64,000 bases of DNA from Carallia brachiata (lineage: Eukaryota > Streptophyta > Magnoliopsida > Malpighiales > Rhizophoraceae): the NCBI GenBank assembly GCA_021464245.1, contig JADCRB010000016.1, forward strand, positions 3,775,250 through 3,839,249, written 5' to 3'. The notes under the pieces were generated by a model. It saw only the letters and a program-made list of their open reading frames with translations. It searched no databases and was not told where the DNA came from. Position numbers and translations under genes: made by a program. Shown piece by piece: positions 3,974 through 54,641 of the stretch; positions within the stretch are counted from its first letter, which is position 1; every line of letters begins with the position of its first letter.

Positions 3974-4082
3974 ACCTATAAATAGGCCATGAAATGACCA
4001 CAATACAACCAACCTCTATTTTTTTTTTTTTAAAGAAGCAAAAGATGGGAGCCAGAGAGGTCCCACTTGACATGCTAAAAAT
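3974..4082 (-). mobile_element. Family L leader and primer-binding-site region
   Basis: Read on the minus strand, this is the stretch that follows an LTR: a TGGCA-like start (here CATGCTA on the plus strand), a purine-rich leader and a run of A. Its presence beyond the LTR at 4083-4992 means that LTR is flanked by internal sequence on both sides. Confidence 0.6.
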
Positions 4083-4992
4083 TGTAAAAGGACCGTAAGT
4101 TTTAAGCCTGAATAGTTAGACTTTCAAAATGCAGATACAAATTACAAGTGAAAATTTAAAATTTATGTAGGTTAGATCTCTGTGTGATCCTCTAATCAAT
4201 GCTCTTTTTATTGTCATCAAGGGCCGCACGAGCTTGATCTTGATAGAAAGAGATAAATTTCCACAGCGTGATCTTGAACTGTAGGAAAAAAATTCTATCG
4301 AGGGCCAAGGCTTGATCTTAAGCGGGATACCATAACTCCGGTGAGGGTCATAGAGACTTTATCTCAATCAAATTGGTTTCATTTTGGTGAGGGCCATAGG
4401 GGTTTAATTTCAAGTGGACTGGTTTGTCCCCACTGAGGGCGAGGGCTTGATTCCACTTGAATTAGTCTAACCATGTTGAGGGCCATAGGGGCTCGATCTC
4501 ATATGGACTGGTTCCGCTGAGGGCCAAGGCTTGATCTCGAACAGACTTGCGTGGCTCCGCTGAGGGCTGCAGGGGCTTAATCTCAAATAAATGTTTAATA
4601 TTTTAATATTTTAGATTTTTACTCTTGCAGATCCCAATCAGTAATGATCAGAGAGCATACACCCAAAATATGCTCGAAAATGAGTATATTAAATATTTTG
4701 GGCTTTTGATATGGAAGATAGCATTTAATGGCGTCTGGAGAGTATATGCCCAAAATAAGAAAATATATAAAGGCAATTTAGGAGTTTTAATGGAATTGTG
4801 TTTTTTCAATTGCTTTGTTCATGATTTGCACGCCTTCCCCCAATTGGCTATTTATAGTCAATGGGGGTAAAGAAGAGGGCAGGTATGAGGACCACTGCCT
4901 TGAGTTGGATGGCACCGATTTTTTTGACCCTTTTTTTTTTCTTCTAGTCAGTTGCCAACCTCATGACTCTCCCCTTTTTTCTTTTGTTTACA
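4083..4992 (-). mobile_element. 3' LTR of the 4.1-8.4 kb element
   Basis: Inverted ends: TGTAAAAG at 4083 and TGTTTACA at 4985-4992. On the minus strand the TATA box TATAAATA lies at 4849-4856. The LTR minisatellite spans about 4,200-4,590. The polypurine tract abuts at 4993. Confidence 0.8.
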
Positions 4993-5787
4993 AATGCCCC
5001 CACTTCAAGGCTTAGTGAGGCAGAACCTTGGGACGCGATTCGAACCAAGCCTTAAAGTCTAGATTGAAACTTGCGACGTAGTGACGAATATTAAACTTGA
5101 AATCTTTACCTCTGTCCAGTGCGGCTGATATTGAGCTTCCATAGCTCATAAAGGATTTTTTCATAGAACTCGAAGTTCCATGGATTTGGCGAGGATGATC
5201 TAGTAAGTAAAGAGCTTAAACCTCCCTATGGAGAAGGTTCAGCACCACAGAACTTCAAAGCCAGCACATGGAGAGACGGTCCATAGTGATGACTCCTCTG
5301 TTTGTTTTGACGTAAGCAGAGTAATTTCAACTTCCCCGTCTGTTGCCACATCTATGATTCCATGAGGATTATCACAACTTCCCTGCACGCTGTGATAGGT
5401 GCAAACTAAGGAGAGTGATTGGAACTTCATTGACTATGATGGAGTAAGAGGTTTATATTCGAGGATCCCTCGACTCTTTCTCTATCTAGAATTTGTGTTT
5501 GTAGCTTCTTGATTAAAGGATTTACCCAAAAAGAGAACACAGAGACTAGCCATCTTCTTTCTTTAAAGAGAAAGAAGAGTTGAGGGGTGAGTTTTGTGAC
5601 TTGAGAATACAAAAAATATATAAGCAACAAAAGCTGTCCTTTTTTTCTCTTTTGAAAAAGTCAAAAAGAGGATGTACTATACCAGGTGGGGTCCTCTTTC
5701 AAGTCCCTTTCTGTCATAAGGGACAAAAAGACGATGACTGACGCATATTGTTCAAGACAATAAAGCGTGCTGTAAAAGTCATTGCAC
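4993..5787 (-). mobile_element. Polypurine tract, tail and 3' part of the captured WOX segment
   Basis: The polypurine tract reads AATGCCCCCACTTC on the plus strand (4993-5006), then the usual tail to about 5,090. The rest (about 5,090-5,787) lies downstream of the WOX frame and recurs after the other WOX copies. It includes a CT-rich stretch and a second start codon on the minus strand at 5553-5551 with a short degenerate frame (MAS...), function unknown. A TTGACGTAAG motif at about 5,308-5,317 corresponds to the ACGT double site of other copies. Confidence 0.6.
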
Positions 5788-6361
5788 CTTGTCCTTGTCG
5801 GCCGAACTCGTGGCTTGAGGCGTAGCTCCAAGTCAATTGAGTCCTTGCTTGGTGGGCCAATAACGTTGACACTAGTGAAACTTTCCTATTGCTTGATGTC
5901 GCCGGGGTGTACTGGAAAGAAAGGTAGAGTTTCACCAGAGTGGCTCCCTCTAGTGTGAGGTTTCTGCTCGGATTGAAGTACTGACAAGGGACGAACCCTT
6001 GTTGGAGCTTGATGCTTCGTACGACGAAGAGTAAAAACTCTAGAACCAATATGTGTACTGCTACAGGCTATAGCTTTAGTCGAAATAGCCTTGAGGAACC
6101 ATGACAGTAGTGGAGCTCAGACCTGCTTCATTTGAGGACAAAGCCATACTAGTGAGATTTACTATGGGAACAGATGCAATGGTAGAAACAAAGTGTGCTA
6201 TAAAAAGAATTGTTCTCTGTGTTGCTCTCTTCCTATATCTCCAGTTCTTCACTGTTGCAGAAGTACTCCTCAAAGATTTTCAGTTGCATTGGACTCAGTC
6301 GCCATCTATTATGTGGCAACCTATCCTCTCCCTTGCCCTAAGATTCTGTAACTAGCTCCAT
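5788..6361 (-). pseudogene. Captured WOX pseudogene, homeodomain partly deleted
   Basis: It starts at ATG 6361-6359 (MELV). The homeodomain opens with RWRLSPMQLKIFEEYF but loses about 100 bp covering the end of helix 1, helix 2 and most of recognition helix 3, resuming at the KNWRYRKRATQR equivalent. Downstream the frame shifts. The WUS box appears as TLPFFP (5930-5913) and the EAR motif as DLELRL (5834-5817), both with normal spacing. Stops occur at codon 8 (shared with three other copies) and several later places. WOX proteins are plant transcription factors; WUS-box and EAR motifs mediate repression through TOPLESS-type corepressors. This copy could not encode a DNA-binding protein. Confidence 0.85.
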
Positions 6362-6473
6362 CTTTCTTGCTAAAAGGATGCAGAAGCTTGACCTGCAGTA
6401 AGAATGAGTAAAAGGTTAAGATTAGAATAATGATTCAAACTCAAACTCTCAATTGTTTTTGTCCTTTTGGGCC

Positions 6474-6970
6474 ATTCACAGTTTATACTCAGGTGGGGCA
6501 GGAGTCTTGGACTAGATCCTAAATTCAATTTTTGAGCCGTTCACAGTTTATACTTGTGCAAGTCAGGAGTTCTAGACTGGATGTGAGGCAAGAGTTTGCT
6601 TCAATTGATCGCCTTTTATACTCGTGCGAGGCAAGAGTCTGTTGCTGGGCCGTCATCTTTTAGACTCATGCAAGACAAGAGTTTATTGTTGGATTGTCGC
6701 CCATTATACTCATGCAAGACAGGAGTTTGGTTTGCTAAATTGTTCGCCTTTTATACTCATGCAAGTTAGGAGTTGATTGTTAGGTTGTTCCCTCTTATAC
6801 TCGTGCCAGACAAAAGCCTAGTTTGCTAAACTGTTTGCCTTTTATACTTGTTCGAGGTAGGAGTTTGTTGTTGGGTTTTCGCCTTTTATACTCGTCCGAG
6901 ACAGAAGTCTGGTTTGCTTAACTGTTTGCCTTTTACACTCATACGAGGCAAGAGTCTGATTTGTTGAGTT
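6474..6970 (-). repeat. TATAAAAGG minisatellite array
   Basis: About ten units of roughly 45-60 bp. On the minus strand each reads approximately CTCCTGCCTCGCACGAG then TATAAAAGGCGA and a variable AACAACAAATC spacer. The array lies just upstream of the WOX frame in element orientation. Units are diverged, so it is not recently homogenised. Confidence 0.9.
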
Positions 6971-7310
6971 GCTAACTTGGGTTGTGAGTCAGGGTTTGGG
7001 TTTTGCCCCCGAATTTGTATTTGGACTTTAGGCCGAAATTTGGATATGGGTTTTGAGCCCGAGTTTAGATTTGACTTTTGATTTGGGTCCAGACTTGGAC
7101 TTTAGATGTGGGTGCAGATTTGGACTTTGGGCTGGAACTTGAGTTTGGGCTTTGGGCCTGAGTTTGGGTCTGCCCCCATATCTAGATTTGGAGTTTAGGA
7201 TGAAATTTACATTTGATCTTTGGTCTAGAATTTGGATTTGGGTTGGAATTTGGTTTTGGGCTTAGAGCCTAGGTTTGGATTTGGATTCGGATTTAGATTT
7301 TGATTTGGAA
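6971..7310 (-). repeat. CCAAATC-type tandem repeat
   Basis: Irregular repeats (about 22 and 44 bp) built on AAAGCCCAAATCCAAA on the minus strand. They follow the same order as elsewhere in the family: this array, then the TATAAAAGG minisatellite. Long open frames in it come only from the low-complexity text. Confidence 0.85.
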
Positions 7311-7764
7311 CCGTGCCCTCAAATTGGAAGACTGGAGTGGAGAGACTTGGTAGGAATTTGACCCACTGCCCCCAACTTTTGTCGAAGTGGACGATCGACT
7401 TTTCCATTCAGCGAGAGAGTCAAATGAGAGATCCTGTTGCTGTATAAGATGCAGTTTCTCTATTTTATTTTTTTTTTAGGCGGGGAGGAACTGTGTCCGT
7501 ATGCAAGTTTTTCGACCTACGTACCCAAGCAGGATAGTTGATGCAGGCGATGGAGCAGTCATCCTTTTTTGTTGATGGAGGCAGGTTTGCCCTTCCTCGG
7601 TGCCAGCGATGTATTGGATTTTTGCCCCAAGGGTTGTGTCGGTGTTGGGCATTTCATGGTCAATAAATAGGCCATAAAATGATCACTGTGCGACCAACCT
7701 CTTTTTTTTTTTTTAAGGAGTAAAAGATGGGAGGCTGAGCGCTCCCACTGGGCATGCCAAAAAT
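7311..7764 (-). mobile_element. Gag-less internal segment B plus leader
   Basis: Non-coding stretch between leader and CCAAATC array, found in place of gag in eight places here. It has a second polypurine-like run (TTGGGGGCA on the minus strand near 7,365). The 7,660-7,764 part is the leader, including a GGCCATGAAATGACC-type inverted repeat relic. No ORF is conserved among copies. Confidence 0.65.
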
Positions 7765-8427
7765 TGTAAAGGGACAGTAAGTTTTGAGCCTGAACAATTA
7801 AGTTTCTAAAATACAAATAAAAATTACAAGTGAAAATTTAAAATTTATGTGGGTCGATTTCTGTGTGATCCTTTGATTAATGCTCCTTTTTTATGTCATC
7901 AAGGGCCATGTAGGCTTGATTTTGGCAGAAATAGATAATTTTTCACAGTGTTATCTTAAACTGTAGGAAATAAATTCCACTGAAGGCAAAGGCTTGATCG
8001 TAGGGGGATATCGTAAGTTTAGTGAGGTCTATAGAGACTTGAAATCAATTGGATTGGAACAATTCCGATGAGGGCTATATGGGCTTAATTTCAGGTGAAC
8101 TAGTTTGCCTCCAATGAGGGCCGAGGCTTGATCTCACTCGGACTAGTTAGCTCTGTTAGGCCGTAGGGGTTTGATCTCAAATAGAATGGCTCTGTTCAGA
8201 GCCTAGGCTCGATCTTAGAAGGACTTGTGTGGCTACACTAAGGGTCATAGGGGCTTAATCTCAAACGAATATTTAATATTTTAAAATTTTGGATTTTTGC
8301 TCTTGCAGATCTCAATCAGTGGTGGCCAGAAAGCATACACCCAAAATATGCTTGGAAATGAATATAATAAATTTTTTCAGTATTTGACTTGGAAGATCGC
8401 ACTTAATGGCGTCCAAATAGTACAGGG
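7765..8427 (-). mobile_element. 5' LTR, U3 truncated
   Basis: Begins TGTAAAGG at 7765 and carries the LTR minisatellite (about 7,900-8,260). It stops at about 8,427, just before where the TATA box should lie, so the promoter is lost. An inversion junction follows. Confidence 0.7.
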
Positions 8428-9225
8428 CCTAGGCCCAAACTCAAATTCCAGTCCAAAGTCCAAATCCAAACCCAAATCCAAAGCCCAGAACCAAACTCCT
8501 ACCTCGCACAAGTATAAAAGGCGAACAATTCAGCAAATCAAACTCTTGCCTCACATGAGCATAAAAGGCGATAACCCAATAAATTCAAACTCCTGCCTCA
8601 CACGAGTATAAAAGGCGATAGTTCAACCCAACAAATTCACACTCCTGCCTCGCACAATTATAAAAGGCCAATAGCTAAAGAAGACTCCTTACCCGCACGA
8701 GTATAAAAGGTGATCAACTAGAGCACACTCTTACCTCTCATGAGTATAAAAGGCGAACAGTTCAGCAATCCCGACTCCTACTTTGCACGAGTATAAAAGA
8801 CAAATAGCTCAACAACAAATAAGACTCTTGCCTCGCACAAGCATAAAAGGCGACAACACAATAACAGACTCCTGCCTCGCACGAGTATAAAAGATAAACA
8901 ATATATCAAATTGGACTCCTACCTCGCATGAGTATAAAAGGCGAACAACTGAAGCACACTCCTGCCTCGTATGAGTATAAAAGACAACAACCCAATAATA
9001 GACTCCTAACTTGAATGAGTATAAAAGGCGACAACTACAATAACAAATGCAGACTCCCAGCTTGCATGAGTATAAATGGTGAGACGACAACAGCCACACA
9101 AGACGCAGTCCAAAATTCCTGACCCGTACGAGTATAAACTGTGAATCGCCCAAAAACCAAAAAATCAAGGCTTAGTCCAATACTCCTGGCCCGGATGAGT
9201 ATAAACTACGAACGGCCTAAAACGA
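8428..9225 (+). repeat. Short CCAAATC array then TATAAAAGG minisatellite
   Basis: The first 70 bp are CCAAATC-type repeats. From about 8,498, some 15 minisatellite units follow, most with TATAAAAGG. The last two or three units carry TATAAACT and end about 100 bp before the WOX start codon. Confidence 0.85.
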
Positions 9226-9325
9226 TAAAAATGATTGAGGGTTCAAGTCTGAATCATTATTCTAGTCTCAACCTTTTACTTGTTCTTACGGCAGGTCAAG
9301 CTTATGCATTCTTTCAGTAAAAAAA
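9226..9325 (+). other. Conserved leader of the captured WOX segment
   Basis: A stretch ending in CTTACGGCAGGTCAAGC and a CTTTCAG run precedes the WOX ATG in all copies (compare 6,362-6,460 and 52,165-52,263). It marks the left edge of the captured block. Family L elements without WOX pass directly from the array to the tail here. The CAG/GTCAAG point resembles an exon junction or acceptor, which is suggestive only. Confidence 0.5.
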
Positions 9326-10000
9326 ATGGAAATAGTTGCAGAACCTTAGGACAAGGGAGAGGATAGGTCAACACATACTAGATGGCGACCAAGTCCAATG
9401 CAACTACAAATCTTGGAGTAGTAGTTTCACAGTAATGAAAGTATTTGTCCTAGTTTATCACAACTCTCCGAACTTACCTAATGACTACGGCTGTACGGAG
9501 CAGTCGAGACAAAAAATGTGTATTTGTGGTTTTCAAACTAAAAAAACAAGGAAACAGTAGGACTGAGAGCTGCGGTCTCTACAGCACATCCTACCTCAAT
9601 CACCGCAGCTGTTCCCATGGTAGATGTCACCAGTATTGCTTCATCCTCAAATGAAGTTATAGGTTCGAGCTCCACTACTGCCACGGTCCGTCAAGGCTAT
9701 TTTGAGCAAAACCATAGCTTGATGCAACACGCGCACTATTTCTGGAGGCTTTACTTCTCATTCTACAAAGCTTCAAGCTCCAGCCAGAGGTTCATCCTTT
9801 ATGGATACTTCAATCCAATAGGAAACTTCACACTAGGAGGGAGCCTCTCCGGCGAAACTCTACCTCTCTTTCTAGTACTTCTCAACGACATAAATTAGCA
9901 AGAAAGTTCAAGTAGTGTCGACATCTCTTGCCTACCAAATGAGGACTTGATTGACTTGAATCTATGCCTCAAGCCCCGCGAGGTCGGCCGATAAGGATAA
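9326..10000 (+). pseudogene. Captured WOX pseudogene, full length and collinear
   Basis: A frame of 224 codons plus stop with no frameshift. Homeodomain residues 1-59 are about codons 19-77: R1, W2, P4, Q8, I11, L12, P24, Y39, G40, E43, K45, W50, F51 and N53 match WUSCHEL-type homeodomains without gaps. The WUS box is TLPLFL (9857-9874) and the EAR motif DLNLCL (9953-9970). In-frame stops are at codon 8, homeodomain positions 14, 15, 34, 35 and 54, one after the WUS box, and a CAA-to-TAA change near the end. No intron interrupts the frame, which fits capture of a spliced transcript. The TATAAAAGG array lies upstream. Not translatable as is. Confidence 0.9.
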
Positions 10001-10743
10001 GGTGCAACGACTTTTGCAGCACTACCTTAACTTTGGCGACACTTGTTGGTCATCGCCTCGTTTGTCTTTTATGGCAAAAAGAGACCTAAAGGGACCCCCA
10101 CCTAATCCAACATATCATCTTTTTGACTTTTGCACACAAAAAAAAAAAAGAGGAGCTTTTATTGTGTGTATATTCCTTGCATTCTCAAGTCACAAAACTC
10201 ACACCTCAGCTCTTCTTTCTCTCTGAAGAGGGGTGATAGCTAGTCCTTGTTCTCTCTTTTTCAAGAAATTCTCTGATGAAAAAGCTGGAGATACACAAGA
10301 AATATACGTTCTCTTCGAAGGATCCTTAAAAGCCCTCAAATTTTAGCCTCTGATGCTATCATGGTCAATGAAGTTCCAACCACTCTCCTTTATTTGCATA
10401 TATCCCAATAAGCCAAAAAGTTGTGATCATCCTCACGTGTTCTCAAATGCGGTGATGGACAAAGAAGTCCCAACTACTCTCCTTACGTCGTGACGTAAAG
10501 AAGAATAATAACTATAGCCTGTCTCTTTATGCGCAGGCCTTGAAGTTCCATGGTATTGAACCTAATCCATGAAACTTTGGGTTCTATGAAAAAATGCTTT
10601 GTGAGCTTCTAATTTCAATATCAGTTGGGTTAATCAGAATTAAAGACTTCAAAATTCAATGATCAAACTTCATGCTGAACTTCAAGACTTGATTCAAATC
10701 GCGTCCCAATATTTCCCCTGCCAAGCCTTGAAGTGGGGGAATT
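10001..10743 (+). mobile_element. 3' part of the captured segment, tail and polypurine tract
   Basis: Sequence shared by all WOX-bearing copies. It includes a TATATTCC-like box and CT-rich leader (about 10,160-10,220), then a degenerate frame whose ATG is ATA here (10,227). An ACGT double site lies at 10,493-10,508. From about 10,630 it is the ordinary family L tail, ending in the polypurine tract AAGTGGGGGA near 10,731-10,741. Confidence 0.6.
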
Positions 10744-11618
10744 TTCAAACGCCAAAAAAAAAAAAGCATGATGGCCATGCAATGGCGAGCCACCTAATGC
10801 ATGCATGCAAGTTCAATGGCCGGTTACCTAAAAAGTGTGCAAATTCAAAGGTCGGCTAGTTGTGCCAGTAGTACTTTTCCCTTTTTGTGGCTCATTGCCT
10901 ATAAATAGGCAATGTGTCAAGCCATCCAGCATCATCAATTGGAGAAAAACTTGCAAAACATTGCAAAAACCAAAATCTCATTCCCCCCTTAGCTACGTTT
11001 TTGTGTTTTGGGCCTATACTCTTTGAATGCCATTAAGTACGATCTTCCATATTAAAGGTCCAAAATATTTAATATACTCATTTCCAAAAATATTTTGGGT
11101 GTGTGCTCTCCAGTCGCCTCAAATTGGGATCTGCGAAAGTAAAATATTAAAGTATTAAATATCTGTCTGAGATTAAGTCTTCTACGGCCGTCAGCGGAGT
11201 CAGTCCATCTGAGATCAAGCCCCTACAGCCCTAAGTAGAGATAAACCAGTCCGAGTGGGATCAAGCCCTAACCCTCAGTGGAGTCAAATCAGTCCACCAT
11301 ATGGTCCTCACCAGAATCCAGCTAATTCGATGAGATCAAGTCTCTATGACCCTCACAAGAGTTACGACATCCCCCTTAGATCAAGCCTCGACTCTCAGTA
11401 GAATTTATTTCCCGCAGTTCAAGATCACGCTATAGAAATTTTTCTCTTTCTATCAAGATCAAGCCTACGCGGCCCTTGACAACATAAAAAAAGGAGCATT
11501 AATTGGAAGATCACACAGAGACCCACCCTACATAAATTTTAAATTTTCACTTGTAATTTTTAGTTGCATTTTTTGAGCCCTCACTAGTCAAGGATCGAAA
11601 CTTACAGCCCTCATTACA
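10744..11618 (+). mobile_element. Family L LTR shared between two internal regions
   Basis: The start is degenerate (TTTTCAAACG for TGTAAACACC). TATAAATA lies at about 10,900-10,907 in CCTATAAATAGGC. The LTR minisatellite covers about 11,160-11,400 and the end is CATTACA (11,618). A polypurine tract lies on the left and leader plus segment B on the right, so it serves two consecutive internal regions. Confidence 0.75.
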
Positions 11619-12024
11619 AAGTTTGGCATGCTTGGTGGTATCTCTCTACTCCCATCTTTTACTCCTTAAAAAAAAAAAAAAGGTTGGTGGCATAGTGGCA
11701 ATTTCATGGCCTATAGGCCATGAAATGACCAACGCCAACACAACCCCAGCAGTAAAAAGGAAAAAGAATGGGGGCAGGAATCTAGCGCTTCACTCGCACT
11801 AAGGAAGAGTAAGACCTCTTCTGCCAGCCAAAAAACGACTGCTCCATCGCCTGCCAATTACCATACCTGGGTACGTACATCCACAAATTTGCGCATAAAC
11901 ACGGTTCCTCGCTGCCGAAAAAAAAATTAAAATAGAGAAACTACAGCTCACACAGTAGCAAAATCTCTCACATAACTTTCTTACCAAATGGAGAAATCGA
12001 CCGTCCACCCCAACCAAAGTTGGG
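11619..12024 (+). mobile_element. Leader and gag-less segment B
   Basis: The primer-binding-site-like TTTGGCATGCTTGGTGG starts at 11,621. The leader contains a perfect 26-bp palindrome (11,701-11,726). Segment B follows from about 11,745 with its polypurine-like GTTGGGGGCAAGG near 12,019. Coding potential is not conserved among copies. Confidence 0.65.
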
Positions 12025-17214: not shown

Positions 17215-17612
17215 GGTCAAGGCATCAAATGAAAGCCCAAATCCTCAACACGGACTCAAACTCGGAACCGAAGCCCAAATCCAAATTCTAGCCTAAAGTC
17301 CAAATTCAGATTTGAGGGCAAAGCCCAAACCCCGACTCAAAACCCAAATCCAAATTCCAACTCAAAGTCCAAATTCTCAAATCCAAACTCAGGTTCAAAG
17401 CCTCAACTCAACTTCCGACCTAAAGTCCAAATCGAGATTCGGGGACAGACCTCAAACTCTGGCCGAAAACCCAAACTCAAACTTCAGCTCAAAGTCCAAA
17501 TCTGAACCCAAATCCAAACTCATACTCAAAATCCAAATCCAAATTTTGACCAAAAGTCCAAATCCAGATTCAGTGGCAAAGCCCAAACCTAAACTCAAAG
17601 CCCCAGTTAATA
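17215..17612 (+). repeat. CCAAATC-type tandem repeat
   Basis: About 400 bp of irregular AAAGCCCAAATCCAAAC units, plus-oriented, in the standard position before the minisatellite. Confidence 0.9.
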
Positions 17613-18535
17613 ACTACAATAGTTAAAAATACAAACTCCTTGCCCACACGAATGTAAAAGGCGATACGGCAACAACAACAAATCCACATTCTTGCCTCGT
17701 ACGAGTATAAAAGGCAACAACACAGTCCAACACTCTTGCCTCACACAAGTATTAAAGGCAATCAACTGAGGCAGACTCCTATCTCGCACGAGCATAAAAG
17801 GCGACAACTCAGCAACAAAGCACAGTCCTACATCGCAAGAGTATAAAAGGCGACAACACAGCTCAAAAATCTTACCTCGCACGAGTGTAAAAGGTGACAG
17901 TTCAACAACAAATTCACACTCCTACCTCGCACAAGTATAAAAGGTTAATAGTTCAACAATCCAGTCTCCTACCTCATACGAGTATAAAAGGCAACAATAT
18001 AACAGTAGACTCTTGCCTCGCACAAGTATAAAAGGCAACAACTCAGACTCCTTGTCCACACGAGTATAAAAGGCAAGATGACAATAACAATAAAAGCATA
18101 CTCCTTACCCACACAAGTACAAAACGTGAGATGACAACGCCAAAACATACTCCTTGCCCACATGAGTATAAAATGTGAGACGACAACAACAACGATAAAC
18201 TCATGCCTCGTATGAGTATAAAAGGCGACAAACCAACAATAGACTCCTACCTCACACGAGTATAAAAGGTAAACAGCTCAGAAAGAAAAGCAAACTCCTG
18301 CATCACACGAGTACAAAAGGTGAATAGCTCAACAACAAATCCAGTCTCCTGCCTCGCACGAGTATAAAAGGCAACAACCCAATAACACACTCCTACTTCG
18401 CACGAGTATAAAATGCAACAATTCAGTAGCAAAGCATACTCCTAGTCTACACAAGTATAAAAATTGAGACGACAACAACCACACAAGCCTTAGTCTAAAA
18501 CTCCTTGCCTGCACGTGTATAAACTATGAACGACA
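17613..18535 (+). repeat. TATAAAAGG minisatellite, about 19 units
   Basis: About 19 units of 40-55 bp, most with the CTCGCACGAGTATAAAAGG core. Unit length and the AACAACA spacer vary. Antisense translation gives long repetitive frames, which I treat as artefacts. Confidence 0.9.
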
Positions 18536-21331: not shown

Positions 21332-22526
21332 TTAAGGAGCATGCATAAGATCCATCAAGAATTCAAAGCGAAGCTCCTCTGGAATGCCAAAAAATTGTCG
21401 TGCTGCCACCTGATTGTTTGATAAGAATCTATACGCAGCGCGTAAAATAGTTGGGTTCACATCCATTGACTACAATGCGACATAGATTTGACTCTCCAGA
21501 TACACATGGGGTCGACTGCTCTCCAAAATATTTAGTGATTGCTCCAAAAGGCAATTTCCATGCTCAGCATTGTCATTACTCTTATCCAATGCTCTGGAGA
21601 CATTTGCAACAAATTCATTACTTTTCTCTAACGCCTTGGATACATTGTCCATCCCCATGTTCATGTTTTCATATTGATTTTCCAGCATTTCCATCAGTGT
21701 CGCTTTGCGTTTCGTGCCTCTAGATGATGTCCCTATGGAGTTGGCAGACGGGGTCTGGTCAAGACTAAAGGCAGTAGGGTTGGCACTACAATGTCTGATC
21801 TCGTTGGCAAGGAAGTCAGTGGAGACATCATCAAGGGGTCACCAAAAGTATTCAAGTCAAAAAAAGCACTAGTCCCCTCAATTTGCCATTGTATGCACTT
21901 CTCTCTTGCGCTAAATGCGAGCTCTCCCGTTGCTCTATCCTCTGCAAAGATCTCATACAATTTATCATTGTTTGGGATTAGAGTTCTCAACCATTTCCTC
22001 GCTTTCAGTTTCTCCTGCATGTTGTTTTAAGCAATGGTAAATATGAACAACATTATTTACAGCAATAATAACCAATATTATTATGCTTGCCATATGTGGT
22101 TACCGTGATTAGTTGCTCCCAAACTTCAGTTGTAGCTTCAAACATCTTTGTGACTGAGTTCCATGCAAACCCACTAAGGCCATCAAACAAATCCTTGCAA
22201 TTGTTGCAATGACTTTTCAAACTCTTCAACTTGTTCTTTATATGGTTTTTCTCAATAATTGGTCCAAATTGCTCACGCAATGCTTTCACCACATTCACAT
22301 ATGCTGTTGTAGTAAATGTCCCATCTTGTCTGTTACCCTTATGTTGTTCCTCAGGCAAGCAGTCTAGCAACATATTGTCCTTTTCACTTGTCCACTGTAA
22401 ATTTCTTGCTTGCTCCATAGAACAAGGCCTAGAATTAGAAGCATCAACCCTATCCATTGAACTTTCCATGTGAAGATATACAATCTGTTTACTTTTGCAC
22501 ATTGTCGAGTAGACTTTGTTGGCCAT
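21332..22526 (-). pseudogene. Harbinger Myb/SANT-like DNA-binding protein gene, broken
   Basis: The first ATG is at 22,526; MESSMDRV at about 22,469 is the more likely start. Exon 1 has the Myb_DNA-bind_3 signature: LQWTSEKDNMLLDCL, GTFTTTAYVNV, KSHCNNCKDL and FAWNSVTKMFEAT. A phase-0 GT-AG intron (22,103-22,015) joins it to EKLKARKW...NNDKLYEIFAEDRATG. A one-base frameshift near 21,785 separates the later part (TSSRGTKRKATLMEM...), which carries an in-frame TAG at 21,472-21,470 before the conserved C-terminal end (...EELRFEFLMDLMHAP, stop 21,334-21,332). In this superfamily the partner is needed for DNA binding and nuclear import of the transposase. Confidence 0.85.
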
Positions 22527-25484
22527 AGGGACACAATTGTAGCAACGCAGACAAGCAATTACTTCTTCCTATAACAGCTTCATTTCATGCCTTGAAATAG
22601 AACCTGAAACAAAAAAAATTTTGTCAATAACATTGGTAGTGGAATGGAAAGTCATTACCATAGGTTTATGCACCGAGATTGTAAACCGATGCCTAGCCTC
22701 AATATCACACCATATTCATTTCCATTCACACGCGATATTAGGTATTAAAAAAAAATCTATGTACCCATGCTAAATTTATATGCCTCTTTGCTTTTGAAAA
22801 TTTTTGATGGTGCAACCTAAATTAATTTACATACATGAGCAATAATAAGAAAATACTTTAAAAATAATTCACCTCGTGAGACACCAACATAAATGGGGAT
22901 TCGATCACTTAAATTGAACAAATATCTCATGTACACCTTTGTGAATTATCTCATGTGAACAATTGTCTCATGTAAACAATTATCTCATAAGCCATATTAG
23001 AGAGAGATTGTAACAAATTAGGCAGCTGTCATATATGTGAAACAATTAGAAGTCCAAATATTTTACCTCCTTTCAAATAGTCTTGACTCGTGAGATTTCA
23101 GCCTAGGTAAAACGGTAGGGGCAATGTGTCTCACTTACATGGACCGAATTTCATTTGTCACCCATGCCATGATCTTTGCAATCTCCCAGTTAGCCCAAAA
23201 GACAAAAAAAATCAAACCTATAAAAGTATGTACACAAGTGCCTAATTATGGTGATTGGGATTGGGATGACAGTTATACAAAAAGACTAAGCATGATAGAG
23301 AAGATGACTTTGGGATACATAGGAGTGTCATTCTGGAATCAAATTTACTGCAAGCATTTCATCTATTTACCTTTAATTCAATAGGTTCTTGAATCATATT
23401 AAATATTGAAAGGATAGAAGTGGGTAGTGTTATAGCCAAGGAATTATTTAGGTAACTGGAAATGATTTTGCTTGAATTTTGGCATGTGGTAGAGTAAAAG
23501 AGAATTATGGGGACGTGAAAACGAGGGGCGATATGATCAAGAATGGCGAGCTTGTATGATCTTAGGTGGTTTCGTGTTGGTGAAGATGGCTTGATAATTT
23601 GTTTGGAAACGATTTCAATTTTCATACCCATCTTGTGCAACCATAAACTAGATTTGAAATTTAATTAATGTTTGTGCTTAAGAATTGATTCCAAACGTGT
23701 GTGTATACAAATATTCATAGTTATGCCTTGTTTGAAATCTTTTATTTGCATTTTGTTTATTAATATTTGCCGTTCCACCAAACATCATGCATGGCCAAAA
23801 TAAGGGCCAAGGAGACTAACACTAGATGATATTTCTTTATGTGGTGATGTTTAAGTTGACTACTAAAATTAGCCCTTCTTCATATAAGACAATGATTTTG
23901 ATAAACCACTCACAATTGAATCTTTGGTAACTTCAAGGAAAAATCTTATGGTTTTATGGTTTTCTCTGTTAACTAGATCAATCCAAGACAAAAATGGCAG
24001 CAAAAAGACTCAAATGCTTTCAAGAAATTGAGAGTTCAAGAACATTTTTCCCATGAAAAATACAAAGGAAAAACTGCATAAATAATTAGTTTTTTATTGA
24101 CTACAACTATCTAAGAAGACAGTAGAGTGTCGCATGGGTTGACTACTGGAGAAGGTTTTCCTTTTGAACGTTATAAGAACTGGTGCGACCATTTCACAAA
24201 ATCGTCCCTTCTAACGAGTAAGTCAAAGCGAATTTGCTTCAAGCAAATAATGTGTTCAATTTTTCCATTTGTAAATTAGAAGTTTTGATTGTATTAGGAA
24301 AAAACTAAAATGAAACGGGATCATGCCATGGAAAAATGTTAACTTTATAACCCAATGTATAAAAAATAACTAATAATTGTATAAACTATAATATTTTCCA
24401 TTTTGGTTTTGGGCAGAATTCTAGTAATAATATGCTAGATTACAAATTCCCAATGATTTATTTGGTAGGAAAAAAAACTATGTGGCTATTGATGAATTTT
24501 GTCCATTTTTTTTAATTCACAGAATGCAATCAGTAAGCTCTCTGTAGTAAATGGCTGGTTTGTTAAATGCTTCTTCCTAATGTTTTCAAATTAATTTCTA
24601 TAAATGCGCGAGAATTGCAAAATTAATTTCAAAGTAGTTCAGTTTATCAGACATGCCCTACCAGTACATGGATTTGATTGAGATATTCTGTAAAACTATG
24701 TCATTTAAACCTTTGTTTATATAATTACAGTAACACTCGTATGCCATATGATTAAGACTTCTTTTTTCTTATAAGAAAAAATTGAACAAATTGATAATGA
24801 CTATTTGGCATGTTGGCCAAATATCGTGTGCATCAACACGAAGAAGGGGCACGTCGAAGGTATGTTAAGATTGCTATCTTTCATATCCCGCAGAGGAATA
24901 TTCTCAGATTTTGAAAGTTTTTTTTTTTCAAAATTCATTTATCATAAGGGAGACCGAAAGATTCAAACTAGTATAATAGAGTCACCAATCGGTCACCGTA
25001 GCAATGCATGGAGCGATGTACACAGCAATGGATCCGTTAAGTAGGGATAATCTACAAATAAAAAATTCATAATTGACAATGTCAAGATGGCCAAGTAATA
25101 ATTCAAATGTTTTAAACTCCATGAAAATAAAAGTGTGCTCATAGAAAAGAAATTCAGCTCTATTACTATAAACAGAATATTAAGGAAGCAAAGGGAACCT
25201 AAATTCAGCCCTACTGCTATAAGAAGAAATTTGGGAATCATTGTGAAGCCAATAAAATTGCACAACAACAGAGTATTTAGCCTTATACCTACTAAAGTTG
25301 TTCAACATAACTGTTAACATTGCTAGAGGTACTGATTAAAAGGAGAATGCAAACAACATGCTCCTTTAATTACAATGATAATCTTGCCACATCCGTTCTA
25401 CAATAGAATCTCTCAAATCCACTGGTTGCCTATATTCATTGTCAATGTATTGGCTCCTTCAACATCTTCACTATTTCCTTCCTC
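22527..25484. other. Harbinger internal spacer between its two genes
   Basis: About 3 kb, AT-rich, without a frame I can assign. The largest ORFs (23,124-23,384 + and 23,359-23,640 -) resemble no known domain. I see no terminal repeats of a nested element. Confidence 0.5.
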
Positions 25485-30120: not shown

Positions 30121-30585
30121 TTAATATTTTAATATTTTCAATTTTTACTCTCGCAGATCCCATTCTAAGACGATCGGAGAGCATATACCCAAAATATGTT
30201 TGGAAATGAGTATATTAAATATTTTGAGCCTTTATTTTGGGAGATCGCACTTGATGACGTCTAAAGAGTGTACGCGTAAAATAAAAAAACAAAGGGGAGA
30301 AAATTTTTAAAAACTTTTGGAATTGTAAAAACATTTGCAATTTTGATGAATGGAACCTTTTTTCTGTCTTTTTCTTTTTGGCTTGCTCCTTGTCTATGCA
30401 TTTGGGTGGCCATTTCATGGCCTTTTATAGGCCATGAAACAGCCACTGTTCTACCAACTCGATTGGTGGAATAGTTTCTTTTTTTTTTTTTTTTGATGTT
30501 CTTCTTTGGCCAATGGCTGGTCAATTTCTCTTCTTCTTTGGTTAGCCACCAACCAAAGACACTCTTTTTTTGTTTTATGCCTACA
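30121..30585 (-). mobile_element. Right part of the split minus LTR
   Basis: Resumes with TTAATATTTTAATATTTT and runs through the U3 region (GGCCTTTTATAGGCC near 30,420-30,434 in an inverted repeat) to GCCTACA at 30,585, the degenerate LTR terminus. A polypurine tract follows. Confidence 0.75.
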
Positions 30586-30949
30586 AATGCCCTCACTTCA
30601 AGGCTTGATGAGGCGAAACCTTAGGACGTGATTCAAACCAAGTCTTCAAGTCCAACTTGAAACTTGAGACATATTGAGGAATACTGAATCTTCAAGTCTT
30701 TAACTCTGGTTAGCCCGACTAATGTTGAGCTTCCATAGCTCGCAAAGGCTTTTTTATATGGAACTTGAAGTTTCATGGTTTAGGTGAGGATAATCCATAT
30801 TCTCTTCCTGATTCTAAGGTTCTACAACTAGTTCTATGTTCCTTGCTGAAAGGATGCAGAAGCTTGACATACAGTAAAAACATGTAAAAGGTTCAGACTG
30901 AAATAATGATTCAAACTCAAAACCTCAATCGTTTTTATCTTTTTTGGGT
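30586..30949 (-). mobile_element. Polypurine tract, tail and WOX segment relic
   Basis: The polypurine tract is 30,586-30,600. The downstream end of the captured WOX segment (about 30,700-30,796) is joined at about 30,797 to its upstream end. About 1.1 kb including nearly all the gene is deleted, so this element was once a WOX carrier. Confidence 0.7.
30797..30840 (-). pseudogene. WOX pseudogene relic (first codons only)
   Basis: Only about 13 codons remain, with the start changed to ATA (I-E-L-V-V-E-P-stop). The stop after EP is at codon 8, as in the copies at 6.3, 9.3 and 52.3 kb. Confidence 0.6.
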
Positions 30950-31545
30950 CGTTCACAGTTTATGCGAGCCAGGAATTTTAGACTGGGTCCTAATTTTGGT
31001 TTTTGGGTTGTTCACAATTTATACTCATGTGGGTCAGGAGTGTTATTTTACTGTCACCATATCACCCTTTTATACTCGTGCGACGCAGGAGTTTGCTTTT
31101 ATTATTTTTGCTATCTTGCCTTTTATACTCATGCTGGCTAGGAGTACGGTTTGTTGTGCTGAGCTATTGCCTTTTATACTTGTGCGAGGTATGAGTATGA
31201 TTTGCTGAACCATTCGCCTTTTATACTCGTACGAGATAAGAGTCTGTTGTTGGATGGTCACCTTTTATACTCATGCAAGGCAGGAGTCTGGATTACTGAA
31301 CTGTTTGCCTTTTATACTCATGCGAGGCAAGAGTTTAGTTTACTGAACTATTCACCTTTTATACTTGTGCGAGGTAGGAGTGTGAATGTTTTGTTGAACT
31401 ATCGCCTTTTATACACGTGTGAGGCAGGAGTCTGGTTTGCTAAACTATTCGCCTTTTATACTCATATGAGGCAGGAGTGAGAGTTTGTTGTTGAACTGTC
31501 GCTTTTATACTTGTGCAAGAAGGAGTTTGTTGTTCAATTGCTGAG
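30950..31545 (-). repeat. TATAAAAGG minisatellite
   Basis: About 12 minus-oriented units. Same register as other arrays: hairpin-forming CTCGTGCGAG core and GCCTTTTATA on the plus strand. Confidence 0.9.
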
Positions 31546-33357: not shown

Positions 33358-33615
33358 CCCTCCAAATCTAAATTTGGGGGCAAAGCTCGAACTCCAACTC
33401 AAATTCCAAATCCAACCTCAAATTCTGGCCAAAGTCCAAATTTAGATTTGGTGGCAAAGCCGAAATCCTGACTCAACATCAGCCGAGCTAATCGGAGCTA
33501 AATACTTCAACATTCAATGTTCCTCAAAACATCTCAAGCTTTGAGCTGGACTACAAGACTCGATTCGGATCACGTCCCCAAGTCCTTCCTCACCAAACCT
33601 TGAAGTGGGGGCATT
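33358..33615 (+). mobile_element. 3' internal remnant, duplicate of 53-312
   Basis: Same order as the left window edge: short CCAAATC array, tail, polypurine tract AAGTGGGGGCATT (about 33,603-33,615). It belongs to a duplicated block. Confidence 0.7.
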
Positions 33616-34693
33616 TGTAAACATTAAAAAAAAAATTCAAACGGTCAGCAACTGACCGTTGAAAGAAAAAAAAAATCTTTCACAGTACCTACCAAAAGCC
33701 TATAAATAGGTGGCACTATAAGCTTGTGAGGCATCCCAAAACTAGCAGACAGGCGAGGGAGAGGAAGTAATTTCCAATTCCAAAGGTTTTTAAAAACTTT
33801 TTCCTCCCAACGTTTTCGTATTTTGGGCGTATGCTTCCCAGATGCCATTAAGGTATATATTCCAAATCAAAAGCCTAAAACATTTAATATACTCATTTCC
33901 AAGCATATTTTTGGTGTATACTCTTCAATCGCGACTGATTGGAATCTACGAGAGTAAAAATTCAAAATATTAAAATATTAAACCTTTGTTATTGCACAGT
34001 ACCTGCCAAGAGCCTATAAGTAGGCGGCATTATAAGCTTGTGAGGCATCCCAAAACAAACAGACGGGCGAGGGAGAGGCAGTAATTTCCAATTACAAAAC
34101 TTTTTAAAAACTTTTTCGTCCCTGCGTTTTCATATTTTGGGCGTATACTCCCTAAATGCCATTAAGGGAGATATTCCATATCAAAAGCCCAAAATATTTA
34201 ATATACTCATTTCCAAGCATATTTTGGGTGTATGCTCTCCAGTCGCCACTGATTGGAAACTGTGAGAGTAAAAATCTAAAATATTAAAATATTAAAATAT
34301 TAAACATCTATTTGAGATTAACTCTCCTACGACCCTCAGCAGAGCTAATCCATCTAAGATCAAGCCCCTACGGCCCTCAGCAGAGCTAAGCCAATTCGAG
34401 TGGGATCAAGCCCCGACCCTTAGTGGAGTCAAACCAGTCCATCTGAGATTAAGCCCATACGGCCCTCACCGGAGTTATGGCATCCCACAGAGATCAAGCC
34501 TCAGCCCTTAGTGGAATTTATTTCTTTAGTTCAAGAGCAAGCCTTCGTGGCCCTTGACAAAATCACACAAGAGTATTAATGGAGGACCACATAGAGATCA
34601 ACCCCACATAAATTTTAAATTTTCATTGGTAATTTGTATCTATATTTTCAAAACCTAACTGCTTTAGACTCGAAACTTATTGTCCAGTTTAAA
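33616..34693 (+). mobile_element. LTR with duplicated promoter, sister of 313-1451
   Basis: TGTAAACA start. TATAAATA at 33,701-33,708 and TATAAGTA at 34,015-34,022, about 314 bp apart, as in the sister. The end is degenerate (GTTTAAA for GTTTACA). Confidence 0.8.
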
Positions 34694-40691: not shown

Positions 40692-41342
40692 TTATCCTTG
40701 TCGGCCAACCTAGCGGGGTCCGAGATGTTGTTCCAAGTCAATTGCATCCTTATTTGGCAGGCCGGTGACATTGACACTATTAAAACACTCCTATTGATTA
40801 ACATCCTCATGGTGTAGTGGAAAGAGAGGTAGAGTTTTGCCAGAACGACTCCCTTTTGGTGCAAGGTTTCCTCCTAGACTAAATTACCGGTAAGGGATGA
40901 ACCCCTGGTTGACTCCATAAAACCACCAGGACTTATATGTGAAGTCCCATAGGCTATAGCTTTGGTTAAAATAGCATGGAGGGCCCATTGAAGTGGTGGA
41001 GCTTTGACCTGTTTCATTTGAGGACGAAACTGTACCGGTGAGATCTACTATGTGAACAGCTACGATGGTAGAAACAAACTGTACTGTAGAAACAGCAGCT
41101 CTTTGTGTTGTTCTCTCCCTATTTGTTCAATTTTGGAACCAGGCATGCATAATTTTTGTTTCAACTACTCCGTACGACCACAATCACGAATCAAGTTGGG
41201 AGAGTTGTGATAAACTAGGACAAGTACTTTCACTGCTCTGGAAGTACTCCTTTAAGATTTGCAATTGCATTGGACTTGGCTGCCATCTAATGCATGCTGA
41301 TTTGTCCTTTCCCTTATCCTGACGTTCTTCAACGAGTTCCAT
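40692..41342 (-). pseudogene. Captured WOX pseudogene, best preserved copy
   Basis: ATG 41,342-41,340, natural stop 40,694-40,692, one collinear frame of 216 codons with only a few internal stops. Codon 8 is Q (CAG), where four other copies have a stop. The homeodomain starts at codon 19: RWQPSPMQLQILKEYF, then P24, Q28, L36, Y39, G40, E43, K45, WFQN 50-53 and R57-E58-R59, gap-free against the WUSCHEL class. Stops are at homeodomain positions 35 (TGA for CGA) and 54 (TGA), one before the WUS box, one after it, and one near the end. The WUS box is TLPLFP (40,835-40,818), followed by LHHED. The EAR motif is degraded (DLEQHL, 40,739-40,722). The linker is 8 codons shorter than in other copies. 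Confidence 0.92.
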
Positions 41343-50146: not shown

Positions 50147-51067
50147 TGCAAACACCCAAAAAAAAAAAAAAGCATGATGGCCATGCAATGGCCAGCCATC
50201 TAATGCATGCATGCAAGTTTAATGGCCAACCACCTAATAATTATGCAAATGCAAGGGGTCGGCTACTTGTAACGGTGGTACTAGTCCCTTTTTGTGGCTC
50301 ATTATGCATAAATAAGCAAAGAGCCAAGCCAAGCAGCATCATCAATCGAAGAAACGTTTGCAAAATATTTCAAAAAACAAAATCCCAAAACAAACATATG
50401 GGTGAGGGGTATGAAGGAATTTTCAATTCAAAAAGTTTTTAAAAGCCCAAAATATTTAATATACGTGTACGTTTTCGTATTTTAGGCATATACTCCCTCA
50501 ACACCATTAAGGGAAATATTCCATATAAAAAGCCCAAAATATGCAATATACTCCAAGCATATTTTGGGTGTATATTCTCTAGTTGCTATTGATTGGGATC
50601 TGTGAGAGTAAAAATATTAAAATATTAAAAATTTATTTGAGATTAAGTCTCCTACGACCCTCAGCAGAGCCAGTCCATATGAGATCAAGCCCCTATGACC
50701 CTCAGCGAAGCTAAACCAGTCCGAGTGGGATCAAGCCATGGCCCTAGCCCTCAGCGGAGTCAAACCAGTCAATCTTAGATTAAGACCGTACGGCTGTCAC
50801 TAGAAGCCAATCCGATTGAGACCAAGTCTCTACGGCGCTCACCGGAGTTACCGCATCCCCATGACATCAAGCCTCGGCCCTCAGTGGAATTTATTTTCTC
50901 AGTTCAAGAGCAAGCCTTTGTGGCCCTTGACGACATCACACAGGAGTATTAATCGAAGGATCCACACCGAGATCGACCCCACATAAATTTTAAATTCTCA
51001 TTTGTAATTTATATTTGTATTTTCGCAACCTAACTATTTCAGGCTCAAAACATATGGTCCCCTCACA
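50147..51067 (+). mobile_element. 5' LTR of the WOX element
   Basis: Starts TGCAAACACC (T to C in TGTAAACA), ends CCTCACA (51,067). 921 bp. The usual TATA motif is altered (TATGCATAAATAAGC near 50,303-50,317). The minisatellite is about 50,630-50,880. Two CAAGCATATTTTGGG-region modules are partly scrambled near 50,450-50,570. Confidence 0.8.
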
Positions 51068-51894: not shown

Positions 51895-52164
51895 AGCCAA
51901 AGTCAAATCCCAATCTCGGACTTAAAGCCCAAAACCAAATCCCAATTTAAGTCCAAATCCCCAAAACCCAGCAAATCTAAACCTAGCTCAAAGCTCAAAT
52001 CTAAATTTCAACTCCAAGTTCAAACCCCGTCTCAAACTCAAAGCCCAAATCCAAACTCGGGCTCAAGTTCGGGCTCGGGCTTGAAACCCCAAAAACCAAA
52101 AACTTAGGACCCAATCCAAAACTCCTATCCCGTTGATTATAAACTGTGAACGGTTCAAAAGGAT
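51895..52164 (+). repeat. CCAAATC array and a single minisatellite unit
   Basis: The array spans about 51,895-52,100. Only one minisatellite unit remains (52,105-52,160, with TATAAACT), so this WOX copy lacks the usual TATAAAAGG series. Confidence 0.8.
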
Positions 52165-52263: not shown

Positions 52264-52937
52264 ATGGAACCAGTTGCAAAACCTTAAATAAGGGAGAGAA
52301 TAGGTAACCACACACTAGATGGCGACCAAGTCCAATGCAACTACAAATGTTGGAGGAGTAATTTCGTAATAATAAAGGTACTTGTCCTAGTTTATCACAG
52401 CTCTCCAAACTTACCTCGTGACTGCGACTATTTGGAGCAATCGAGACAAAAAATGTGTATTTTTAGTTTCAAAACTGGAGAAATAGGGTAAGAGTAGCAC
52501 TGAGAGCTGCGGTCTCTACAGCACAACCTGTCTCAACCACCACAGCTGTTCCCATGGTAGATCTCACTAGCATTGCTTCATCCTAAAATCAAGTTGTAGG
52601 TCTGAACTCCACTGCTGCCATGGTCCCCCAGGGCTATTTTGAGCAAAACTATAGCCTGATACAATACGCATATTCGTTCTAGAGGTTTTACTCCTCATTT
52701 TATAGACCTTCAAGCTCTAGCTGGGGGTTCATCCCTTATGGATACTTCAATCCGATAACAAACTTTGTACCGAGAGGGAGCCATTCTGTCAAAACTCTGC
52801 CTCTCTTTCCAGTATACCCTGGCAACGTCAATCAACAGGAAAGTTTTCGTAGTGTCGACATCATCGGCCCGCCAAACAAGGATTAGATTGACCTAGAGCT
52901 ACGCCTTGAGCCCTAGGAGGTCGGCCGACAAGGATAA
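52264..52937 (+). pseudogene. Captured WOX pseudogene, collinear, one early 1-bp deletion
   Basis: ATG 52,264; one base is lost between codons 8 and 19, after which the frame is collinear with the 9.3-kb copy: homeodomain R1 at 52,317, WUS box TLPLFP at 52,794-52,811, EAR motif DLELRL at 52,890-52,907. Spacings of 477 and 573 bp from homeodomain to the two motifs are identical in both copies. The helix 3 region reads IETKNVYF-stop-FQNWRNRVR, a TGG-to-TAG change at W50. Other stops are at codon 8, homeodomain 15 and 35 (TGA), and elsewhere. The natural stop is TAA 52,935-52,937. Confidence 0.9.
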
Positions 52938-53731
52938 GGTGCAACGACTTTTGCGGCACTGCCTTGACTTTTGCAACACTTGTCACTTGTCGTCTCATTT
53001 GTCTCTTATGGCAGAAAAAGACGTAAAGGGACCCCCACCTGATCCAACATATCCTCTTTTTAACTTTTGCACAAAAAAAAAGATAGGAGCTTTTATTGTT
53101 TATATATTCCCTACATTCTCGAGTCACAAAACCTATACCTCAACTCTTTTTCCTATCTAAAGAGGGATGATGGCTAGTCCCTCCTGTACTCTCTCTTTTT
53201 TAGGAAATTCTCCAATGAAAAAGGTGGAGATACACAATAAAGAGTCATTCTCTTCGAAGGATCCTTAAAAGCCGTCGAATTTCAGACTCTGACGCAATCA
53301 TGGTCAATGAAGTTTCAACCACTCTCCTTAATTTGCATCTATCACGATGAGCCAAAAAGTTGTGATCAGCCTTATCTACTCTCAAATGCGGCGACAGATG
53401 GGGAAGTCTAACTACTCTTCTTACGTCGCGACGTAAAGAGGAATCATAACTATAGTTCGTCTCTCTATGCGTTGGCCTTGAAGTTCCATGGTTTTGAACC
53501 TTCTCCATGGGAAGGTTCAAGTTTTTTGTTTACTAGATCATGCTCACCTAATCCATGAAACTTTAGGTTCTATGAAAAAAATCCTTTGCGAGCTTCCAAT
53601 TTTAACAACTGTTGGGCTAGTCAAAACTAAAGACTTCAAAATTCAATGGTCAAACTTCAAGTTGGACTTCAAGACTTGGTTTGAATCACATCCCAAGGTT
53701 CCGCCTCACCAAGTGTTGAAGTGTGGGCATT
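52938..53731 (+). mobile_element. Downstream captured sequence, tail and polypurine tract
   Basis: A TATATTCC box (about 53,101-53,110) and CT-rich leader precede ATGATGG at 53,167 and a degenerate short frame. A perfect 16-bp palindrome with two ACGT cores lies at 53,421-53,436. Tail from about 53,615; polypurine tract GAAGTGTGGGCATT at about 53,718-53,731 (one G changed to T). Confidence 0.6.
53421..53436. promoter_or_regulatory. Palindromic double ACGT site
   Basis: TTACGTCGCGACGTAA is a perfect palindrome with two ACGT cores in TGACG-like context, the type of site bound by plant bZIP factors. The copy at 10,493-10,508 differs by one base. Function is inferred only. Confidence 0.4.
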
Positions 53732-54641
53732 TGTAAACACCAAAAAAAGAAAATTGTATGATGGCCATGCAAGGGCTAGCCACCTAATGCATGCATGCAA
53801 GTTCAATAGATTGCCACCTAATAAGTGTGCAAATTCAAGGGTCAGCTACATATGGTGGTGGTACATGTCCCTTTTCGTGGCTCATTTCCTATAAATTGGC
53901 AATGAGCTGAGCCATGCAGCATCATCAATCAGAGAAAAGCTTGCAAAACATTGCAAAAACCAAAATCCCAAAACAAGCAGACGGGCGAGGGAGAGAAAGT
54001 AATTTCCAATTCCAAAAGTTTTTAAAAACTTTTTCCTACCTATGTTTTTTATATTTTGGGCTATACTCCCTAGATGCCATCAAGGGAATACTCCAAATCA
54101 AAATAAAATATTTAATATACTCATTTCTAAGCATATTTTGGGTGTATGCTTTCCGATCACCACTGATTGAGATCTGCAAGGGTAAAAATTCAAAATATTA
54201 AAATATTAAACATATGTTTAAGATTAAGTCTCCTATGACCCTCAGCAGAGCCAGTCCATCTGACATCAAGCCCCTACGACCCTCAACGGAGCTGAACCAA
54301 TCTGAGTGGAATCAAGCCCCTGCCCTCAGTGCAGTCAAACCAATCCATCTAAAATTAAGCCCACGCGGCCATCACTAGACGCCAGTCCGATTGAAACCAA
54401 GTTTTTGTGACCCTCAATGGAGTTATGGCATCCCTTTAGATCAGGCCTCGACCCTCAGTGGAATTTATTTCTTCAGTTCAAGAGCAAGCCTTCGTGGCCC
54501 CTGACGACATCATATAGGAGCATTAATCGGATGATTCACACAGAGATCGACCTCGCATAAATTTTAAATTCTCATTTGTAATTTGTATATGCATTTTAGA
54601 AACCTAACTGTTTTAGGCTCAAAACTTACGGTCTCCTCACA
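53732..54641 (+). mobile_element. 3' LTR of the WOX element
   Basis: TGTAAACA at 53,732, end CCTCACA at 54,641; 910 bp. The TATA motif is CCTATAAATTGG near 53,889-53,900. It shares the ATGGCCATGCAA module with the 5' LTR but is less scrambled. Confidence 0.85.

Follow-up and report, generated by a model that had tools for sequence, protein, structure and literature searches.

Decayed WUSCHEL-class WOX frames inside LTR elements of Carallia brachiata, probably captured as a spliced transcript

LTR elements carrying WOX genes have been described in Vigna. According to a 2023 meeting report, Vigna marina and V. riukiuensis contain many WOX copies (more than 1000 in the latter), mostly located between identical LTRs with target-site duplications (TSDs) (PMC10714607). 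For plant LTR elements that have transduced genes, a review of their extra ORFs describes one or a few copies of the transduced gene (PMC7264820), and the maize element Bs1 is described as having captured exons only (PMC4717578). WUS-class proteins such as WUSCHEL and HEADLESS (HDL) carry a homeodomain, a WUS-box and an EAR-like end (PMC6305195).

The locus analysed here is a 64,000-nucleotide stretch of Carallia brachiata (GCA_021464245.1, contig JADCRB010000016.1, positions 3,775,250 to 3,839,249), hereafter the window. As in the Vigna WOX-LTR family, a WOX gene lies within an LTR element and has been multiplied. Compared by description, however, the Vigna copies are young, with mostly identical LTRs and TSDs, whereas five LTR pairs here differ by 16-21% and the copies are broken. 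The locus shares with Bs1 and other gene-transducing plant LTR elements, as these sources present them, an intronless host coding sequence in sense orientation (PMC7264820, PMC4717578, PMC3726574), but in place of one or a few copies, five elements within 64 kb hold the insert or a remnant of it (PMC7264820). Homeodomain, WUS-box and EAR-like end follow in the same order as in WUSCHEL and HEADLESS; in contrast to these proteins, majority homeodomain identity is 27/61, the frame has 225 codons against the 302 aa of HDL, and premature stops are present (PMC6305195).

In one open-access library, mostly judged by title, the Vigna report is the only one found on LTR-borne WOX amplification, and no paper was found that places a WUS-class gene in an element built like the present one. 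Since the Vigna case has already been reported, WOX capture by an LTR element is not new as such. The carrier itself resembles LARD-type elements, LARD being what we take to be the class name for non-autonomous LTR elements of this type: it has LTRs, primer-site-like and polypurine sequences and no gag-pol match in the ORFs scanned, and differs from them in carrying a host transcription-factor frame.

The WOX frame and its copies

The reading frame of copy A has the following features:
9326..10000, plus strand: WOX frame of copy A, 225 codons with 8 premature stops
9377..9571, plus strand: homeodomain of copy A, WUSCHEL class
9854..9877, plus strand: WUS-box of copy A (ETLPLFLV)
9950..9970, plus strand: EAR-like motif of copy A (IDLNLCL)
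10138..10149, plus strand: A-run of element A, about 130 bp past the terminal stop

A sequence-only reading had described this frame as free of indels. Its gap-free translation is as described, but that reading left eight premature stops unmentioned (codons 8, 32, 33, 52, 53, 72, 191 and 223; the terminal TAA is codon 225), five of which fall inside the homeodomain. The longest open run in the WOX frame is 118 codons, and the window holds 24 stop-to-stop frames of at least 110 aa, so the openness of the frame alone is not beyond chance; its homology is. Chance similarity as an explanation is rejected by matches to Pfam PF00046 and to WUSCHEL in the PDB.

Read through its stops, copy A aligns without a gap to the WUSCHEL chain (PDB 6ry3, E 4.8e-12); all 11 homeodomain residues named by that reading are present, at frame positions R19, W20, P22, Q26, P42, G58, E61, K63, W68, F69 and N71. 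STENOFOLIA follows at 2.8e-11 and needs one gap. A profile of four copies gives WUSCHEL 2.5e-14 and STENOFOLIA 3.4e-14, with NANOG (0.0069) as the chain ranked after them, and copy C alone places STENOFOLIA first (2.2e-9, WUSCHEL 1.9e-8). These two proteins are the only strong PDB matches and the sole WOX chains found. Among copies A to C, which were scanned against Pfam, PF00046 lies above its cut-off in A (E 3.4e-7) and B, and copy C reaches 21.6 against the 22.9 bits required.

Homeodomain identity to WUSCHEL is 25/62 in A, 28/63 in B, 22/65 in C and 27/61 for the majority residues; to STENOFOLIA it is 25/59, 29/61, 24/62 and 28/58, respectively, and the two proteins share 46/64 with each other. 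Because the identities are similar, they give WUS no preference. The homeodomain is also unusually divergent, with 19 of the 43 positions common to WUSCHEL and STENOFOLIA altered. Outside the homeodomain, the WUS-box, which we take to be of the TLPLFP type, reads TLPLF in A, B and C and TLPFF in D. The C-terminal EAR-like motif, presumably of the LELRL type, reads IDLEL in B and D, IDLNL in A and IDLEQ in C. On our assumption, a TLPLFP box together with an LELRL end indicates WUS itself and not WOX1-7. The combination of WOX-type homeodomain, WUS-box and EAR-like motif would place the copies in the WUS clade. A search of a 5.8-billion protein set with the four-copy alignment returned 2221 candidates, none at E <=0.01 and no WOX relative.

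Further copies were located by BLAST of 9201-10100 against the window. The matches are B at 52139-53037 (81% identity), C at 41458-40594 on the minus strand (69%), D in two minus-strand pieces, 6486-6261 (83%) and 6177-5688 (74%), and E at 30963-30798 on the minus strand (80%), which covers the upstream part only. Insert or remnant is thus present in five elements, A to E:
52264..52937, plus strand: WOX frame of copy B, 1-nt deletion at nt 24, 8 premature stops in A's frame
40692..41342, minus strand: WOX frame of copy C, 3-nt and 21-nt deletions relative to A, 5 premature stops
5789..6361, minus strand: WOX remnant of copy D, 95-nt homeodomain deletion, 5 premature stops in A's frame
30585..31010, minus strand: element E, insert start followed by an internal deletion reaching the right end

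The frame is kept end to end in A, B and C. Collinearity without an indel, as first proposed, holds for A against B from homeodomain to EAR, the sole indel of B being the missing base at nt 24, 5' of the homeodomain; it does not extend to C and D, which carry deletions relative to A. The spacings from homeodomain to WUS-box (477) and from homeodomain to EAR (573) are indeed equal in A and B, the copy at 52 kb. Copy D has deletions of 95, 3, 1, 1 and 2 nt, three of the small ones shifting the frame, and in element E the internal deletion removed the WOX frame and left only the start of the insert. From the ATG through homeodomain, linker, WUS-box and EAR-like motif to the stop, copies A, B and C are collinear without any intron-sized interruption, which supports the claim that an entire coding sequence was captured and not an arbitrary piece of one. 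None of A to D retains an intact open reading frame, each holding five to eight premature stops; the WOX copies in the window are filed as pseudogenes with no working WOX protein.

The carrier element and the insert

Elements of the family follow a common order: LTR, primer-site-like sequence, leader, an array of TATAAAA-containing units, the WOX insert or nothing, a polypurine end and LTR. The parts referred to below are:
8489..9145, plus strand: unit array of element A, about 43-51 bp per unit (like ACTCCTGCCTCGCACGAGTATAAAAGGCG...), upstream of its insert
17553-18530, 38432-39208 and 55580-56652: further unit arrays, among others
9230..10600, plus strand: captured insert of element A, approximate, placed by eye against seven insert-free elements
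10730..10739, plus strand: polypurine-tract-like GAAGTGGGGG of element A
10744..11618, plus strand: LTR after the insert of element A, ends by eye, possibly belonging to another element
50147..51067, plus strand: 5' LTR of element B (TGCAAACA...CTCACA), ends by eye
53718..53727, plus strand: polypurine-tract-like GAAGTGTGGG of element B
53732..54641, plus strand: 3' LTR of element B (TGTAAACA...CTCACA), ends by eye
3978..8429, minus strand: element carrying copy D, with LTR homologies at 7663-8429 and 3978-4763
170-329 and 33473-33632: two additional copies of the common end

The units of about 43-51 bp hold GAGTATAAAAGG, a TATA-box-like core, and their arrays occur in most family elements seen in the window. 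Seven of the 12 arrays examined lack WOX (near 17, 38, 44, 47, 49, 55 and 61 kb), and against these the insertion is outlined at about 1.37 kb. Six of the seven pass into AAAGACTTCAA and the common polypurine end that flank the inserts of A, B, D and E. At 61 kb the array meets the common end about 40 nt further in. Both insert junctions are found in A, B, D and E, and only the left one in C; junctions and LTR ends were set by eye.

Element B is the most complete, with copy B between two LTRs in 4.5 kb and about one array unit kept. Its paired direct LTRs are 82.0% identical, and those of D 78.7% (core). The motif GAAGTGGGGG and its variants precede the LTR, and a primer-site-like sequence of the TTTGGCATGCC... 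type follows it, for which the matching tRNA was not identified. No TSD was recognised by eye at element B, where the ends are inexact and the insertions nested and old.

A true 3' LTR should have no primer site behind it. Primer-site-like sequence is nevertheless seen behind the insert-following LTRs of A, B and D (11619-11640, 54642-54665 and 3978-4050), as would be expected of elements fused in a head-to-tail arrangement. For two further LTR matches (1340-1471 and 34580-34713) similarity stops about 20 bp beyond the LTR end. Past the LTR, the leader includes a 26-bp perfect palindrome (11701-11726), with similar inverted sequence at other copies. Four tandem 237-bp units, about 90% alike, lie directly past an LTR start at 61881-62839.

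No match to gag/pol or another retroelement protein was obtained in the nine scanned of the 19 element B ORFs of at least 60 aa; these nine and one frame of A gave a single match, at E 0.16, below its cut-off. Nor was a retroelement protein found in the 10 scanned of the 24 window frames of at least 110 aa. The longest stop-to-stop frame of the window (22056-22568, minus strand) matches a Myb/SANT-like DNA-binding domain (PF12776, E 7.6e-19), and the other matches among these 10 frames are below their cut-offs.

Two parts of the insert lie outside the WOX frame. A pyrimidine tract ending in AG stands before the ATG position (ATA in E) in five of five copies, at 9280-9325 in A and at the equivalent place in B to E; the AG is a possible splice acceptor. 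The place of the A-run is also A-rich in B, C and D, and its reading as a poly(A) remnant is only suggestive. About 450 bp of shared insert sequence past the A-run (10150-10600) contain no recognised protein on reading by eye in all six frames, in A as well as in B and D. Two ORFs of B fall within this part, one without a Pfam family and one with the E 0.16 match mentioned above. This stretch may be untranslated sequence or stem from a second capture.

Selection, shared stops and age

The sequence-only reading had proposed a dN/dS check in which values near 1 would argue against function after capture. Run on the internal branch separating A/B from C/D, it gives an omega of 0.80, mostly as predicted for no function after capture. 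The branch holds 31 split columns among 542 gap-free sites, 10.8 synonymous and 20.2 nonsynonymous, against a neutral expectation of 29.8% synonymous; neutrality is not rejected (P 0.31), and P falls to 0.16 for an omega of 0.5, 0.008 for 0.3 and 0.0002 for 0.2, in a test that leaves out the homeodomain stretch deleted in D and in which a few columns may be parallel changes. In the covered part of the homeodomain (codons 18-82), four of eight split columns are synonymous. Strong selection between the A/B and C/D masters is rejected for the sites covered, omega values <=0.3 being excluded.

Pairwise pN/pS is 0.52-0.75 over the six pairs. These raw values are rejected as a sign of constraint: the permutation null itself has means of 0.68-0.73, owing to transition bias and the removal of stop codons, and the null shuffles by base, so that CpG context is not preserved. 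Five of the six pairs lie below their null, with P of 0.24 (A-B), 0.14 (A-C), 0.75 (A-D), 0.010 (B-C), 0.039 (B-D) and 0.064 (C-D). Among 12 off-frame controls none is below 0.23, and three exceed 0.975, deviating as far the opposite way.

Parsimony changes number 104, 109 and 130 at the three codon positions (343 in all; omnibus P 0.19, one-sided third-position P 0.042). By arbitrary phase, the flanks give 30, 28, 22 and, in the 3' flank, 13, 35, 24; the latter imbalance exceeds that of the frame, so such imbalance arises in the absence of coding. The frame has 0.515 changes per site, and its two flanks have 0.457 and 0.518; for the separate regions of the frame the values are 0.43 in the homeodomain (a value lowered by D's deletion), 0.43 in the WUS-box, 0.54 in the linker, 0.67 in the EAR and 0.55 in the N-terminus. 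The low pairwise pN/pS, the third-position excess and the fewer changes in homeodomain and WUS-box weigh against a passenger reading; as a whole, the differences between copies look more like decay than kept function.

The stops themselves are partly shared. Codon 53 is TGA in all three copies that have it (A, B and C) and is deleted in D. Of 14 columns with CG in D, not one has TG in A, B and C together and one has CA in all three; two copies show TG beside CG in the third in 3/30, 0/30 and 2/25; parallel origin of this stop is unlikely. At codon 33, where C and D have TAC, A reads TAG and B reads TAA, which a single stop common to A and B would explain best. At codon 8 the readings are TAG (A, D, E), TA- (B) and CAG (C); where C has CAG, A and D are both TAG at 2 of 17 sites, which makes it weak evidence for a shared stop. 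The shared stops suggest that the master from which the copies were made was probably already broken.

At most two or three stops are placeable in the copies' ancestor (codons 8 and 53, plus 33 for A/B). Simulated neutral drift from WUSCHEL to the majority homeodomain (44% identity), with homeodomain codons as proxy for the entire protein, yields a mean of 9.0 stops per 222 codons and two or fewer in 0.3% of 2000 runs. Most divergence from WUSCHEL therefore seems to have arisen while the frame was coding, whether in the host or in the element, and coding seems to have ended at about the time the copies arose.

LTR-LTR divergence (K) is 0.212 in B, 0.260 in D (core) and 0.189, 0.198 and 0.244 in three WOX-less elements. 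Insert K is 0.207 for A-B, 0.320 for B-D, 0.350 for A-D, 0.360 for both B-C and C-D and 0.387 for A-C. The A-B value is close to the LTR-LTR value of element B and, at face value, holds almost only post-insertion change. The LTR of A differs from the two LTRs of B by 0.273 and 0.263, above the A-B insert value: either LTRs change faster, part of the A-B distance then predating the insertion of B, or A's LTR is another element's. The inserts put pre-insertion change between B and D at about 0.08 (0.320 less half the LTR K of B and half that of D), and the LTR cores (0.287, 0.268) put it at 0.03-0.05; the four-point internal branch between A/B and C/D is about 0.07 from the inserts.

Origin of the insert and its meaning

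The insert with its approximate junctions, its sense orientation, the LTRs flanking copy B and the decay of A to E are observed directly. We consider it likely that they go back to capture of a spliced transcript by a non-autonomous LTR element, followed by hitchhiking as a passenger. A spliced WUS-class WOX transcript, with complete coding sequence and some further sequence, would have been copied into the element in the sense direction, downstream of the TATAAAA-repeat array and ahead of the polypurine tract and 3' LTR, and would then have multiplied with enzymes from another element. Capture would have passed through RNA, presumably by template switching during reverse transcription; the replication proteins would have been supplied from elsewhere, and the WOX protein would have had little or no role by the time the copies were made.

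Medicago WUS (HDL) is described with two introns and three exons (PMC6305195), and Brassica WUS-clade genes with two or three exons (PMC6482515). Set beside these introns, the absence of an intron-sized break favours capture from RNA, as for Bs1. The same exon structures, and a frame free of intron-like gaps, speak against recombination of a genomic WUS locus into the element, in which the frame would be intronless because its donor was. Such DNA-level capture could draw on the 3' splice-site-like pyrimidine tract ahead of the ATG position in all five copies and on the unexplained sequence of about 450 bp behind the A-run; we give it a small chance. That the WOX frame is instead an old gene of the element lineage, from the same capture as the Vigna WOX-LTR family, is unlikely: it would fit the many Vigna copies, mostly between identical LTRs as the meeting report presents them, and the unusual divergence of the homeodomain (19/43 shared positions altered), but seven related arrays in the window are without WOX.

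Selection on the WOX protein during part of the element's life, through repression of host genes or by favouring dividing cells, with only dead copies now seen, appears quite improbable. The somewhat low pN/pS of B-C, B-D and C-D, the small third-position excess and the divergence accumulated while coding lean towards it, although the simulation behind the last point takes homeodomain codons for the whole protein. Against it stand the internal-branch omega of 0.80 with values <=0.3 rejected, the shared stops at codons 33 (A, B), 53 (A, B, C) and possibly 8, and the absence of the insert from 7 of 12 arrays. A counterpart of oncogene capture, in which a stem-cell regulator, captured whole along with its repressor motifs and lying in an env-like position behind a possible splice acceptor, once benefited the element through expression in germ-line-feeding meristem cells, would be a long shot. 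The evidence here favours decay of a passenger.

Capture and multiplication of a complete WUS-class gene by an LTR element may have a second lineage besides Vigna. Inserts, empty sites and LTR clocks occur side by side in the window. If this is a second lineage, it becomes testable whether WOX capture recurs by chance or because meristem expression aids access to the germ line.
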